Program-made: the position numbers and the translations under genes
Source: Natrinema sp. SYSU A 869
GTDB lineage: Archaea > Halobacteriota > Halobacteria > Halobacteriales > Natrialbaceae
Direction of reading: 5' to 3'
DNA: 64,000 nucleotides
Assembly: GCF_019879105.1 (NCBI RefSeq)
Contig: NZ_CP082249.1
Location: 2,108,001 to 2,172,000, forward strand
Notes under the pieces: model-generated
Seen by the model: only the letters and a program-made list of their open reading frames with translations
Databases searched by the model: none
Told to the model about the DNA's origin: nothing
In this document: in pieces, positions 3,753 to 62,666 of the stretch
How positions within the stretch are numbered: the first letter of the stretch is position 1
Layout of the letters: each line of letters opens with the position of its first letter

Positions 3753-4766
3753 ATGGATCTCACCCATCGCCCCCGGCGGCTCCGACAGGACCGCGTTCGC
3801 GGCCTCGTCAGCGAGACGAGCCTCGAGTCAGCGGACCTCATCGCGCCGGTGTTCGTCGACGCAACGACCGACGAACGAATTCCGATCGAGTCGATGCCCG
3901 GCCACGACCGAGTGCCAATCGACGGAATCGTTGCCCGTGTCGAGGAAGTCCTCGAGACGGGCGTCGAGGCGATCATGCTCTTTGGCATTCCGGAGTCGAA
4001 GGATCCCGAGGGACGCCGAGCCTGGGCCGAAGACGGCGTCATTCAGGAGGCGCTCCGCCGGATCACGAGCGAGACGGACGCCTACGTCATCACCGACGTC
4101 TGTCTCTGCGAGTACACCGATCACGGCCACTGCGGGCCGCTTGAGGAGGAACTCCGGAGCGAGGACGTCGTCGAGGCGGACGGCCCCGCCTGCGAGCCGA
4201 CGATGACCGTCGACAACGACGCCACGCTCGCAGCCCTCGAGCGGATTGTCACCTCACACGCCCGTGCGGGAGCGGACATGGTCGCGCCAAGCGGGATGAT
4301 GGACGGCATGGTCGAGGTCATCCGCGAGGCGCTCGATCAAGAGGGGTTCGAACACGTCCCGATCATGAGCTACGCAGCGAAGTACGAAAGCGCGTTCTAC
4401 GGCCCCTTCCGGGACGCCGCTGACGGCGCGCCATCGTTCGGCAACCGGCGTCATTACCAGATGGATCCCGCAAATTCGCGCGAAGCCATGCGGGAGGTTC
4501 GCCTCGACGCCGAGCAGGGCGCGGACGTGATGATGATCAAACCCGCGCTCCCGTATCTCGACATCATCGCCAACGTCCGCCGCGAGTTCGACCATCCCGT
4601 CGCTGCCTACAACGTCTCCGGCGAGTACGCCATGCTCCACGCCGCCGCCGAGAAGGGATGGCTTGATCTCGAGGCGGTCGCCACGGAATCGCTGCTGTCG
4701 ATCAAACGTGCGGGCGCGGACCTAATTCTAACCTACTTCGCCGAAGACGTCGCGGAGCAACTGTAG
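3753..4766 (+). CDS. hemB: delta-aminolevulinic acid dehydratase (porphobilinogen synthase)
   Basis: A 337-aa cytoplasmic enzyme that condenses two 5-aminolevulinate molecules to porphobilinogen, the second committed step of heme and cobalamin synthesis. The two Schiff-base lysines are K210 ([14 protein letters not shown]) and K263 ([11 protein letters not shown]). The cysteine-rich zinc site is C117-x-C119-x7-C127 ([13 protein letters not shown]), so it is the zinc-dependent type. Length is normal for the family. The ATG is placed 24 nt after a GCGCTTTT box, consistent with a leaderless transcript. hemL, hemC, cobA and hemD follow within 10 kb on the same strand, but each has its own intergenic region except the last pair. 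Confidence 0.97.
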
Positions 4767-5179: not shown

Positions 5180-5260
5180 ATGAACGAGAGTGCACTAGAA
5201 GAAGACGATTGTACGGACGATGGGAGCAACGGTGGATGGGAACTCGAGGTGGGTGGCTGA
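5180..5260 (+). CDS. 26-aa upstream leader peptide, translationally coupled to amt
   Basis: The ORF starts [15 protein letters not shown] and is acidic. It has a perfect Shine-Dalgarno, and its stop codon overlaps the amt start by one base (TGATG: TGA 5258-5260, ATG 5260-5262). That arrangement lets a terminating ribosome restart on amt. The amt start also has its own GAGGTG motif 8 nt upstream, inside the leader ORF. I do not recognise the peptide. It could be a regulatory uORF or only a coupling device. The alternative is that amt translation begins at an internal ATG at 5209 and the small ORF is accidental. Confidence 0.5.
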
Positions 5261-6951
5261 TGGAGCCGACGCTCCTACAGGCCGACACCGAGATGCTGAT
5301 CGAGTCGATCAACTATACGTGGATCCTGATCGCCACGTTCCTGATCTTCTTTATGCACGCCGGCTTCGCCATGCTCGAGGCGGGGCAGGTCCGCTCAAAG
5401 AACGTCGCGAACCAGCTGACGAAGAACTTGCTGACCTGGTCGGTCGGTGTGACGGTATTCTTCCTCATCGGGGCTGGCGTTGAAAGCGTCGTCGCCGGCA
5501 ACGGCTTCGCGCCCGGCTTCCAAGGTGACGCGACAGGCTGGATGGACTGGCTCTACGGTGCGGTCTTCGCCATGACTGCGGCGACCATCGTTTCCGGAGC
5601 CGTCGCCGGTCGGGCGAAGCTCCGTGCGTACGTCACCTACACGTTCCTGCTGGCCGCGGTCATCTACCCGGTCGTCACCGGGCTGACGTGGGCCGGCGAA
5701 CATATCGCATACAGTGACGTCCTGTTCCAGGACTTCGCGGGCGGGATGATCGTCCACGGAATGGGCGGCATCGCCGGCCTCACAGCAGCGTGGGTCCTCG
5801 GTCCGCGCATGGACCGGTACAACAGCGACGGGACCGCGAACGTTATCCCCGGTCACTCGCTGACCTTTGCCGTGCTCGGAACGCTGATCCTCGCCTTCGG
5901 CTGGTACGGCTTCAACGTCGGTACCTCGGCGATCATCGGCGAGGGCGCGTTCCTCGGCGACCAGCTCGGTCGCGTCGCCATGACCACGACGGTCTCGATG
6001 GCCTGCGGTGCGATGGGGGCCGGACTCATCGCGTGGCTCAAGACCGGCAAGGTTGACACGCTATACGTCGCGAACGGCCTGCTGGCCGGCCTGGTTGGCA
6101 TCACCGCGATTCCCGAAACGACCGCGTGGTGGGGAGCGTTCGTCGTCGGCGGCCTCGCCGGCGCACAGCTGCCAATCGTCTTCGAGTTCGTCGAGCAGTA
6201 CCTGAAGATCGACGACGTGTGTGCGGTGTTCCCCGTCCACGGCTCGGCCGGGGTCCTCGGAACGCTGTTGTTCCCCTTCGTGGCCGCGCCCGGCGTCGTC
6301 GATAACATCGCGAACGCCTTCATCACCCAGCTCATCGGCGTCGCCGTTATCACCGTCTGGACGGTCGTCGCGACCGCCGTCATCTGGTACGCGTTCAAAG
6401 CCGCCGGACAGGCCCGCGTCTCGCCGGAACACGAGCGCGACGGACTCGACGTCTCCGAACACGGCGTCGACACCTACCCCGAGTTCGGCCAGCCCGATGT
6501 CGCCACCGACGGGGGCGACGAGGTCATCCGCGCCGACGGCGGTGAGCGATTCGATGAATCGCGATCCTCGTCGGAACTCCGTTCCGACGGCGGCGAGCCG
6601 AACGACGGCCAGATCAAGATGGTCATGGCGATTGTCCGCCCCGACCGTCTCGGCGCGATCAAGCAGTCGCTCGCCGAAGCCGGCGCGCCATCGCTGACCG
6701 TCACCAACGTCTCCGGCCGCGGCTCCCAGCCCGCGAAGAAGGGGCAGTGGCGCGGCGAGGAGTACACGGTCGATCTCCACCAGAAGGTGAAGATCGAATG
6801 TGTCGTCGCGGACATCCCGGCCCAGGAGGTCGTCGATGCCATCCGCGAGGGCGCCGAAACCGGCGAGCCCGGCGACGGCAAGATCTTCGTCATGCCCGTC
6901 GAGGGCGCGACACAGATCCGGACCGGCAAGACCGGCCCTGACGCCGTCTAA
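5260..6951 (+). CDS. amt-glnK: ammonium transporter Amt fused to PII protein GlnK
   Basis: A 563-aa natural fusion. Residues 1 to about 395 form an Amt/Rh ammonium channel with about 11 membrane helices (for example [19 protein letters not shown] and [17 protein letters not shown]). Residues about 451-563 are a complete PII signalling domain ([13 protein letters not shown]-loop [15 protein letters not shown], Tyr in GEEYTVD, and the C-terminal [20 protein letters not shown]). PII normally binds Amt as a separate protein and plugs the channel according to 2-oxoglutarate and ATP/ADP. Here it is tethered by a ~55-residue acidic linker containing two DNA hairpins (6546-6562, 6570-6588). The start at 5260 was chosen for its coupling to the leader ORF; 5209 would add 17 residues. 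Confidence 0.93.
6546..6588 (+). repeat. two 3-nt-loop hairpins inside the Amt-GlnK linker
   Basis: Hairpin 1 is GCGATTC-GAT-GAATCGC (6546-6562). Hairpin 2 is GTCGGAAC-TCC-GTTCCGAC (6570-6588). Both stems are perfect, both loops are 3 nt, and the reading frame stays open, giving Ser/Glu/Arg-rich residues that end in LRSDGGEP. The RecJ-like gene has a matching PRSDGGEP after its own hairpin. Confidence 0.75.
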
Positions 6952-7338
6952 GCTCGGGACACGCGGTCGACCGATCGCAGTCCGCCCGCCGACGGACCGC
7001 GACGTGAGGTGACTCACGCGACCCGCGTTCTCGAGGCCTCTGACAACCGCTCTTCGGCGACTCGACGCCTCCCCGAACGGGGCGTCACGTCGGCCGGGCC
7101 CGACCGGCCCGCGGCCGACACCCAGTGCAGTCCCCCGTGGTTTCGATGGTGTGACGCTGTACTGGATTTGATGCGATTTCGTCGCTTTTCTCGCGGTCCG
7201 TCACGGCTCCTCGAGCGACAGGACTCCGGTGGGTGACCGGCGGAACTCGAGCCCGACGCGTACACGTTCGGCCGTTCGGTCGGCGGTTCGGAGCCGAACC
7301 TCGGTACTACTTTGCCGTCCGGATGCAAAGGGCCGGGC
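6952..7338. other. amt-hemL intergenic region (387 bp)
   Basis: No gene seen. A GC-rich nested inverted repeat at 7089-7119 has 7-bp outer arms GTCGGCC/GGCCGAC and inner arms GGCC/GGCC; it may be a terminator or structured 3' end. The stretch before hemL contains a weak TATA-like CTACTTTG about 35 nt ahead of the ATG. Confidence 0.5.
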
Positions 7339-8685
7339 ATGAACGAAGACAACTCACGTGAGCTCTATGACCGGGCGCTGTCGGTGATGCCTGGCGGCGT
7401 CAACTCCGCGGTCCGGGCAGCGATCGAACCGTATCCGTTCTTCGTCCGGAAGGGCGAGGGAGGCCACGTCATCGACGCTGACGGCAACCGCTATATCGAC
7501 TGGGTCATGGGACTCGGCCCGCTGCTGTTGGGTCACGACCTGCCCGAACCGGTCCGGGCCGGCATCCAGCAGAAGGCCAGCGAGGGACCGATGTACGGGA
7601 CGCCCACGCCGGTCGAGGTCGACCTCGCGGAGTTCGTCGTCCGCCATGTCCCCAGTGTTGAGAAGATCCGCTTCGTCAACTCCGGGACCGAAGCCACCAC
7701 CTCCGCCGTGCGACTCGCGCGGGGGTACACTGGCCGAAACAAGATCGTCGTCATGCAGGGCGGCTACCACGGTGCCCAGGAGTCGACACTGGTCGAGGGC
7801 GACGCCGACGATCCGAGACCGTCCTCCGCGGGAATTCCGCAGTCGTTCTCCGAGCACACGCTCCCCGTCCCGTTCAACGACGAGGACGCCATACGAGAGG
7901 TCTTCGAGGAACACGGGGACGACATCGCGGCCGTCCTCACCGAACCCATTCTGGGAAACTACGGCATCGTCTACCCCGAAGAGGGCTACCACGAGTTCCT
8001 CCGGGAGATCACCGACGAGCACGGCTCGCTGCTGATTTTCGACGAAGTGATCACCGGCTTCCGCGTCGGCGGCCTCGGCTGCGCCCAGAGCGAGTTCGGC
8101 GTCACGCCGGACCTGACCACGTTCGGCAAGATCATCGGTGGCGGCTTCCCCGTCGGCGCAATCGGCGGTCGTGCCGAAATCATCGAGCACTTTGCGCCGA
8201 CCGGCGATGTCTTCCAGGCCGGCACCTTCTCCGGCCACCCCGTCACAATGGCCGCCGGCCTCGAGACCCTGAAATTCGCCGCGGAAAACGACGTCTATGA
8301 CCACGTCAACGGGCTGGGCGATCGGCTCCGAAGCGGGCTAACCGACATCGTCGCCGATCAGGCACCCAGCTACACCGTTACCGGCACCGACAGCATGTTC
8401 AAAGTGATCTTCACGCGGGAAGGGCCGGGCCCGAACTCGCTCGAGGAGCAGTGCAAAGCCGGCTGCCAACAGGACCCGACCTGTCCCCGCTATGACTACT
8501 CACCGAAGAACGCTGCCGACGTGAAGAATGCCGAGACCGAACGCTGGCGGCGCATCTTCTGGGGGAAGATGAAAGAGCAGAACGTCTTCCTCTCGCAGAA
8601 CCAGTTCGAGTGCCAGTTCGTCAGTTACGGCCATACCGAGGATGACGTCGAGGAGACGCTCGAGGCGTACAAGGAAGCGCTGTAG
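7339..8685 (+). CDS. hemL: glutamate-1-semialdehyde 2,1-aminomutase
   Basis: A 448-aa PLP enzyme that converts glutamate-1-semialdehyde to 5-aminolevulinate, the substrate of HemB. Family landmarks are [39 protein letters not shown], and the PLP lysine K264 in [15 protein letters not shown] Cys-containing segment ([16 protein letters not shown]) near residue 375 is an insertion relative to bacterial HemL. The ATG at 7339 starts the conserved N-terminus ([14 protein letters not shown]); an ATG at 7312 would only add a non-conserved nonapeptide. It forms a physiological pathway with hemB, hemC and hemD in this window. Confidence 0.97.
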
Positions 8686-27615: not shown

Positions 27616-28028
27616 TTCCGTTTCGTTCGTCTCATTCTGTATTCGGCCGGGAGCACGGCTCGAGCAACGCAAGAGCCGTGCGACCCGGGGGAGGGCAGGC
27701 CGCTACCCAATTCCGACCGCGAGCGGGCCGACGACTGACGTGGAGGGGGCGTTCTGCGTCCCGGAACGGAAGGAGGAGTGCTTTTGATCGTAACTGAGCG
27801 GAGCGAAGCTCCGCGAGGTCGTCGGGCGGCGCTGCCGCCCGACTGCAAGCGATTCCTCCGGAATCGCCCAGTCCAAAAGAGCGCTGCGCGCTCTTTTGAA
27901 GATTTTGCCGAGGGACATCGCGCTGGCGGCGATGCCGCCAGCGCGATAGACCGTGGTTCGAGACGCCTTCGGCGTCTCGTCATCACGAGAGAGCGAAGCT
28001 CTCTCGAACGACAGAGCAAAATTTCGGC
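27616..28028. other. 413-bp convergent intergenic region carrying the hairpin array
   Basis: No gene. The half beside polC is almost wholly made of the seven hairpins described separately (27798-28006). The other half (27616-27797) is GC-rich with no clear feature. Confidence 0.7.
27798..28006 (+). repeat. tandem array of seven perfect hairpins with 3-nt loops
   Basis: In order: 27798-27814 (GCGGAGC, loop GAA); 27821-27843 (10-bp stem, loop GCT); 27849-27867 (GCGATTCC, loop TCC); 27874-27898 (CAAAAGAGCGC, 11 bp, loop TGC); 27918-27946 (13-bp stem, loop GAT); 27959-27979 (CGAGACGCC, loop TTC); 27986-28006 (CGAGAGAGC, loop GAA). All stems are perfect, 7-13 bp long, and unrelated to one another in sequence. 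Spacers are 5-19 nt. Two carry the core GCGAAGC, known as an exceptionally stable DNA mini-hairpin. The array lies between convergent genes, so terminator use is possible, but seven in a row is far more than needed. Confidence 0.85.
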
Positions 28029-62131: not shown

Positions 62132-62666
62132 ACAGTGTTGTTCGGGAGCCGGTCCCATCGGTCTATCGCCGTCGGCCAATTACTCTCTCCGTTCTGTGAG
62201 TAGAGCCGTTGATTCCCTCGAGTAGAAGCAAATCAAAGCGTCCTGCTATCGTGGCAACGAGGGATCGCCACGCCCTCCCCAACCGATTTCTGCTCACGGG
62301 CGCGTAGCGCCCGTTCGCATGGGTCTCGGAACCTTTGGTTCCGCGCTAACACTCACTCACGCCGTTCGTTCGCTTATCCACTGTCAGAGCAAGCTCTGAC
62401 AAGCCTTTGCTCGCAGGCTCGCAAAGACCTCGCACGGCTTTGGGCCGCAGCTCACTGGCGTTCACCGCGTTCCAGCGCGCGCCACCGCATGCCAGTTCAT
62501 CAATACCGGGAGATGTGTAGTCCACCTGTATCGAACGCTCGAGCGCGCGCAGACCCTGACAGATCGCCACTGATCGAGCGGCGGGCGAGCGCAGCGTCGC
62601 TCGAGGAGGAGATCCCAGGGCTCGCGAGACGATACTTTAAACCGCGGGACGCGCCAAGGGTGGATA
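62132..62666. other. 535-bp divergent intergenic region, mostly repeat copy B
   Basis: Apart from the structured repeat (62223-62530), it holds the promoter side of the stress-protein gene (62132-62222) and of the helicase, where TACTTTAAACC (62634-62644) is a TATA-like element about 25 nt before the ATG at 62667. ORFs of 60-90 codons here run through the repeat and are not credible genes. Confidence 0.6.
62223..62530 (-). repeat. structured repeat element, copy B
   Basis: The reverse strand is homologous to 18878-19230. On that strand it starts with GCATGCGGTGGCGCGCGCTG (from 62492 down) and ends near TCGTTGCC (62252). Hairpins, forward coordinates: 62405-62426 (CTTTGC/GCAAAG); 62382-62401 (TGTCAGAGC/GCTCTGACA); 62327-62343 (CGGAACC-TTT-GGTTCCG); 62296-62314 (ACGGGCGC-GTA-GCGCCCGT). 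Compared with copy A, stems keep pairing while bases change (for example ACGGGTGC/GCACCCGT against ACGGGCGC/GCGCCCGT). Copy B lacks one ~50-bp segment of copy A. Confidence 0.8.

Follow-up and report, generated by a model that had tools for sequence, protein, structure and literature searches.

How did an ammonium channel and its PII regulator come to be encoded as one protein in Natrinema sp. SYSU A 869, and did the hairpins in the DNA between the two domains have a hand in it? The amt-glnK gene lies on the + strand at positions 5260–6951 of the window (the whole stretch of 64,000 nt analysed here), between two genes that look like, and which we take to be, hemB (3753–4766) and hemL (7312–8685). 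A preliminary description of the locus proposed that amt and glnK are usually separate in haloarchaea, and that insertion of a palindrome removed the amt stop codon and thereby fused them. The history favoured here, and which we consider very probable, is different: the Amt-GlnK fusion is old and clade-wide, and a 51-bp palindromic mobile element entered its disordered linker, in frame, long afterwards.

The fused gene and its distribution

The gene is a single, stop-free frame encoding 563 aa: an ammonium channel, a disordered linker and a PII (GlnK) domain. Two near-full-length Pfam matches bear out the preliminary description in that both domains are complete. The Amt domain (residues 21–406, window 5320–6477, + strand) matches Ammonium_transp (PF00909) with 325 bits over model positions 2–399 of 399; its score against TIGR00836, 336 bits, falls slightly short of the cut-off of 343.3. 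An alignment of 35 fused proteins shows that the conserved pore residues are present, and that the conserved 16-residue tail with which the domain closes is complete. The PII domain (residues 453–557, window 6616–6930, + strand) matches P-II (PF00543) with 91.5 bits over model positions 2–102 of 102, and carries a WRGEEY T-loop and the motifs GDGKIF and IRTG, which presumably have their customary roles. Its nearest solved chain is 4ozj_A (a Haloferax GlnK, we assume), whose T-loop, WRGEEY included, is identical over a 15-residue stretch.

The linker (window 6478–6615, + strand) contains two ancestral DGG sites, VATDGG and (I)RADGG. In an AlphaFold2 monomer model (mean pLDDT 72.4) both domains are predicted with moderate confidence and residues 395–444 are disordered (pLDDT < 50), which would suit a passive tether that tolerates insertions. 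Measured between the alignment blocks that flank it, the linker is 44 residues long here versus 27 in genome G144. It contains the motif R-x-D-G(-G), of which R, D and G are invariant in the 35-protein alignment; unfused AmtB tails have this motif too, and Halonotius linkers have it multiplied.

The fusion is ordinary for its clade. Among 121 genomes of the family, 107 contain a fused frame, six have separate genes only, and eight have no match (E ≤ 1e-100; counted by hand). The expectation of separate genes is therefore wrong for this family, and a missed stop codon or assembly error is ruled out, because 107 of 121 genomes share the same fused frame. In 81 loci (80 from named haloarchaeal genomes plus our own), 76 of 88 amt-PII pairs form one frame, in a sample that favours fusions because the loci were picked as the best matches to it; the 12 separate pairs belong to Halosimplex, to Haloferax, and to second copies in two other genomes. 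Across the class Halobacteria, a PII match is found in 373 of 391 genomes (six of the 18 genomes without one are in this family), and frames of ~550–760 aa and of ~113–254 aa are both frequent among the PII matches listed. A search of the open-licence literature returned no description of an Amt-PII fusion in haloarchaea, which is weak evidence of absence.

The fused PII is also the only one that the organism has. A Pfam search of the whole genome (three contigs totalling 5.67 Mb; completeness 99%) found neither a second glnK (PF00543) nor a second amt (PF00909), which settles the matter of other glnK copies raised in the preliminary description. Exactly one PII match is present in 84 of the 95 PII-bearing genomes of the family (counted by hand), and in about 78 it is the fused one.

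The fusion is older than the insert

Two perfect hairpins with 3-nt loops do lie in the linker, as first described: hairpin A, with a 7-bp stem, at window 6546–6562, and hairpin B, with a 9-bp stem, at window 6569–6589 (neither is assigned a strand). When the peptide was recoded synonymously 20,000 times, a pair of stems of at least 7 bp, one of them at least 9 bp, arose with a frequency of 0.001, and hence the hairpin pair exceeds coding chance. Both hairpins fall within a cassette of 51 bp, or 17 codons (window 6544–6594, + strand), that the closest relative sampled (locus L223 of genome G144, 95% identical) does not have, and the claim that the hairpins arrived as an insertion is upheld. 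The relative is likewise fused, and the difference between the two genes is exactly 51 nt: our linker reads the 17-residue cassette peptide and then EPNDG, where that of the relative has an uninterrupted, shorter stretch. A covariance model of the element (described below) matches window 6535–6593 with 85.9 bits. The exact ends of the cassette are ambiguous because GACGGCGGYGAGC is present on both flanks.

Comparison with sister species, as suggested in the preliminary description, thus finds relatives fused without palindromes, which is nearly the result (all sister species fused, none with the palindromes) that it had set against its own proposal. That insertion of the palindrome deleted the amt stop codon and so joined the genes is hardly credible: the hairpins are located in the linker, and the separate pairs of Haloferax and Halosimplex have short spacers and are in some cases in the same frame, but most linkers read among the fused family genomes have no insert, the empty and fused L223 refutes the idea for this gene, and the cassette also occurs in an unfused AmtB tail, so that a palindrome-caused fusion is ruled out. 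The unfused tail is that of Halosimplex carlsbadense (L050), which has separate genes and in which 17 residues are inserted as VRTDGG[LATEESQTSSEPRSDGG]VSGEN; the AmtB tail of H. pelagicum (L031) has no cassette. Since the cassette is found in this tail and in many genes other than amt, it neither created the fusion nor requires it; it is independent of the fusion and, in the present gene, was inserted after it.

Within the fused linkers, the cassette has come or gone repeatedly. Its location varies among species: some have it at the second DGG site, L222, L226 and L228 at the first, L161 at both, and L073 in tandem. A tree built in a short search from the Amt and PII parts, the linker being omitted (65 rows, 55 of them different), requires 14 changes in cassette presence, gain and loss being undistinguished, and 12 of these changes are forced by branches with support of at least 95. 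Presence switches between the near-identical proteins L225 and L006, and is barely more clustered than shuffled labels (for rows with no cassette, 124 of 500 shuffles were as low).

A dispersed palindromic element and its proposed passage between genes

The cassette is one copy of a dispersed element. A BLAST search with 68 bp around it gave 23 matches in our genome at E ≤ 1, of which 22 are other places; the best seven or eight are plainly related, and the weakest are probably due to chance. A covariance model built from nine copies, whose E-values are rough, gave 33 matches in the same genome at E ≤ 1 (14 of them below 2e-4), and matches at E ≤ 0.001 in 86 of 111 family genomes, with 1–15 per genome; the copy number is low. 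A model-independent hairpin pattern, GTCRGARCNNNGYTCYGAC, is found at six places in the genome, all of them in-frame copies, and at none in the control.

Nearly every copy is read in the same way. Loci were drawn from the best 30 places of each model search, and 47 of 56 model matches were examined (including three duplicate pairs: L006/L162, L005/L171 and L073/L179). The nine left out consist of (i) repeat sightings of places in the count (L138 at 2394, L132 at 608, and L143), (ii) opposite-strand matches that overlap a counted or duplicate copy (L132 at 1485, L138 at 2378, L172 at 1437, L169 at 1531 and L168 at 1461), and (iii) one weak match (L141 at 2823). The same reading frame and orientation is shared by 46 of the 47. 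In forty, the coding frame that scores best gives ...GGERxxxSRSSSExxSDGG... or a near variant of it directly. Of the remaining seven, L167, L173, L174 and L175 occupy that frame within an open ORF (the coding status of L167 and L175 is less sure, because these ORFs are only 120 and 118 aa), L138 and L144 keep the peptide frame but start at a shifted position, and L142 (31.7 bits) is non-coding.

What the copies conserve is their pairing. The element consists of two small hairpins joined by a GATCCT spacer that hardly varies. Among 37 copies, of which 36 are distinct and some are relatives by descent, 95.8% of cells in the hairpin arms are paired. Changes on both sides of a pair number 57 cells versus 17.0 in shuffles (none of 500 as high; slid controls at most 10), a count that shared ancestry inflates; both hairpins covary, and between our gene and its N. 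thermotolerans counterpart three pairs have both members changed, with no pair broken. The innermost bases of hairpin A read TTC..GAA, CTC..GAG, ACC..GGT, TCC..GGA, ATC..GAT and AGC..GCT across copies. They thus swap residues freely, indicating that complementarity is kept rather than the peptide. A longer form, with an extra module like GERERSERDPHRNAERSE placed in frame between the halves, was observed in L138, L140 and L141 (hosts: tetrapyrrole methylase, MutS and M20 peptidase).

The host proteins are diverse. Among those that Pfam identifies are a tRNA synthetase, argininosuccinate lyase, MutS, proline dehydrogenase, an SRAP peptidase, an E1 dehydrogenase, a succinate dehydrogenase or fumarate reductase flavoprotein, mesaconyl-CoA hydratase, an ABC ATPase, a tetrapyrrole methylase, an M20 peptidase and a RecJ-family nuclease; five of 20 scanned host proteins have no Pfam match. 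In the M20 peptidase of our genome, the insert is again of 51 nt (EAISES[GEGLNESRSSSEQGSDV]DFSG), and 29 of 30 related M20 genes read from the genus, a subset of the matches listed, have none; among the listed matches outside those 30, the gene of L186 (G193:C1:2615472) has an insert. The insertion site, GAGAGC/GAT, has no DGG codon. The same M20 loop has also been struck in L183 and L186, from two other genomes, and in L141, a second gene of our own genome with the longer form.

The window contains further strong hairpins. By the covariance model, only those at 17781–17856 (+ strand) belong to the family: two hairpin-B modules (SEPRSDGG and SSEQSSDGG; SEPRSDGGEPSQTRRTSSEQSSDGG), in frame between the DHH and DHH-CID domains of the RecJ-family nuclease (ORF at window 17321–18859, + strand). 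Two composites, at 19055–19163 (+) and 62287–62402 (−), are apparently intergenic and were rejected as members, their hairpin stretches at 19055–19158 and 62296–62401 scoring 15.3 and 22.4 bits. Each has three hairpins over ~110 nt, with 86% mean column identity in the aligned stretch; the hairpin with which both open, TTGTCAGAGC..GCTCTGACAGTGGAT, is akin to the element's hairpin B. Another stretch, 27821–28006, packs six perfect hairpins (3-nt loops, 8–14-bp stems) into 190 nt; it has no strong model match and was likewise rejected.

By analogy, this is an archaeal in-frame palindromic element of the Rickettsia palindromic element (RPE) kind, a likeness drawn from their descriptions. As described for RPEs (Ogata et al. 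2000, 2002; via PMC10969869 and PMC3733652), it is a short palindromic repeat that lies in frame in unrelated genes and yields a recurrent peptide. Copies were found in unrelated genes of one genome, and in-frame insertion relative to empty orthologues was found in amt-glnK, in the M20 peptidase (one of 30), and in the AmtB tail. The title of Ogata 2002 (via PMC3733652) calls in-frame gene-invading palindromes unique to Rickettsia, and our search of the open-licence literature found no description of them in archaea (weak evidence of absence). Unlike RPEs, the present element has an archaeal host and two 3-nt-loop hairpins; it measures 51 bp, versus about 150 bp in the account of RPEs drawn on here (other RPE families differ), and it is almost without intergenic copies, where a review passage places nearly half of the R. 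conorii RPEs in genes.

Two other groups of elements invite comparison. The PATEs of Haloquadratum, as portrayed in the relevant parts of PMC3119063, are haloarchaeal, palindromic, without terminal inverted repeats and without target duplication, and have terminal-only forms of 52 bp. The element is similar in size and has two near-terminal palindromes with no terminal inverted repeats (alignment of 37 copies). It differs in being coding, a use not mentioned for PATEs in those parts of the paper. Some PATEs derive from IS605-type transposons (same source); we found no such parent, since the seven Y1_Tnp (IS200/IS605) loci of the genome, searched with 1.5 kb flanks, gave no match above 11 bits. 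One candidate parent, a similar-looking hairpin in L260 (CGTCAGAC-GTA-GTCTGACG), was put down to chance, its locus reaching no more than 10.9 bits under the model. Like the CGTC-tagged REP repeats of PMC3733652, the element has a hairpin beginning with CGTC, and some REP members lie within genes; unlike it, REPs are mostly intergenic according to the portions of that paper used here, whose main text has no 'halo' words and two 'archaea' words.

How might such an element spread? We propose that its DNA passes between genes, the arms staying complementary as the letters change, and that copies would survive where a surface loop, linker or tail receives them in the frame that gives the hydrophilic peptide ERxxxSRSSSExxSDGG. 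The amt-glnK linker has seen repeated entry or exit at its two Asp-Gly-Gly sites, reused probably because they resemble the ends of the element and because the linker tolerates extra residues; the cassette is likely to be neutral there. No target-site duplication was seen at the M20 site, which leaves the mobile step unproven, and at amt-glnK a duplication is unreadable owing to the flanking GACGGCGG.

The uniform frame could suggest instead that the cassette is retained for its peptide, an acidic, flexible spacer serving tether length or high-salt solubility, with the palindrome as a by-product. One frame of six is used in 46 of 47 matches, although five of the six frames of our own copy read without a stop, and the cassette recurs within one linker. 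We nevertheless regard this as distinctly unlikely: residues within hairpin A vary freely (F/L/T/S/I/P) with the bases remaining paired, and the near-identical L225 and L006 differ in having the cassette at all.

Purifying selection on a mobile element would account for the frame bias, and part of the one-frame preference could come from a target sequence. In the window, GACGGC falls in sense phase 0 in 68 of its 222 occurrences, and outside coding frames in 43. As 68 of 222 is far below 46 of 47, a further contribution is needed, from selection against other positions, from intergenic copies escaping detection, or from targeting of the coding strand. Intergenic copies are nearly absent, beyond the prediction of plain insertion and selection; they may have been lost by decay, or overlooked by a model trained on coding copies. 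A bolder idea, to which we give little credence, is that the palindrome spreads only via the coding strand (transcription-coupled or from mRNA) at GACGGC-like (Asp-Gly) sites and so arrives in frame; if true, many DGG-rich haloarchaeal linkers, including that of Amt-GlnK, would be products of arrivals and partial deletions.

Could there be no mobile element at all, the cassette spreading instead as GACGGCGG repeats (DGG codons) recombine or convert one another, so that tails and linkers rich in DGG trade and multiply short units? The Amt inserts sit between DGG codons with GACGGCGGYGAGC on either side, both DGG sites are in use, and DGG units are multiplied in Halonotius linkers. This explanation seems improbable, given that an insert of the same 51-nt size entered the M20 peptidase at GAGAGC/GAT, without such repeats, that the hosts span unrelated Pfam families, and that hairpin arms covary among copies. 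A mobile palindromic element remains the preferred reading, and an archaeal counterpart of RPEs with species-specific insertions in core enzymes makes both element movement and protein tolerance testable; a single linker with about a dozen gains or losses adds to that testability.

A tethered PII

GlnK trimers plug AmtB trimers through their T-loops. Here, by analogy, each of the three PII domains in an Amt trimer would most likely plug a channel via its T-loop when ammonium is plentiful, and would release it, still tethered, as 2-oxoglutarate rises. The tethered plug would be in permanent company with its channel, so that only its seating could change. The same two proteins as are fused here are known from E. 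coli AmtB-GlnK structures (as cited in reviews) and from Hfx. mediterranei, where, in the available text of PMC3831643, GlnK binds AmtB in the membrane following ammonium shock and the gene pair is conserved. In Hfx. mediterranei they are two separate proteins encoded by two pairs, whereas here they are one polypeptide with the sole PII. Ks-Amt5 (PMC5764959, as excerpted) also joins an Amt to a fused signalling domain, that domain being a histidine kinase and not a PII.

An alternative is that free PII is also made, by an internal start or by proteolysis of the linker, such that the fusion changes little. Some ~50 linker residues have a pLDDT below 50, in-frame ATG codons occur at the start of the PII domain (6619 and 6625), and the separate Haloferax GlnK begins only some 10 residues before the same point; on the other hand, linker translations show no conserved methionine between the domains ahead of the PII start. 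We consider this second source of PII possible and somewhat unlikely. The suggestion in the preliminary description that tethering would alter the regulation of other targets is a reasonable one, and gains weight because this genome has no PII besides the fused one.

PII is usually pictured as a hub that diffuses freely and informs targets in the cytosol of the nitrogen status. A lineage with its sole PII covalently bound to the ammonium channel challenges that picture.
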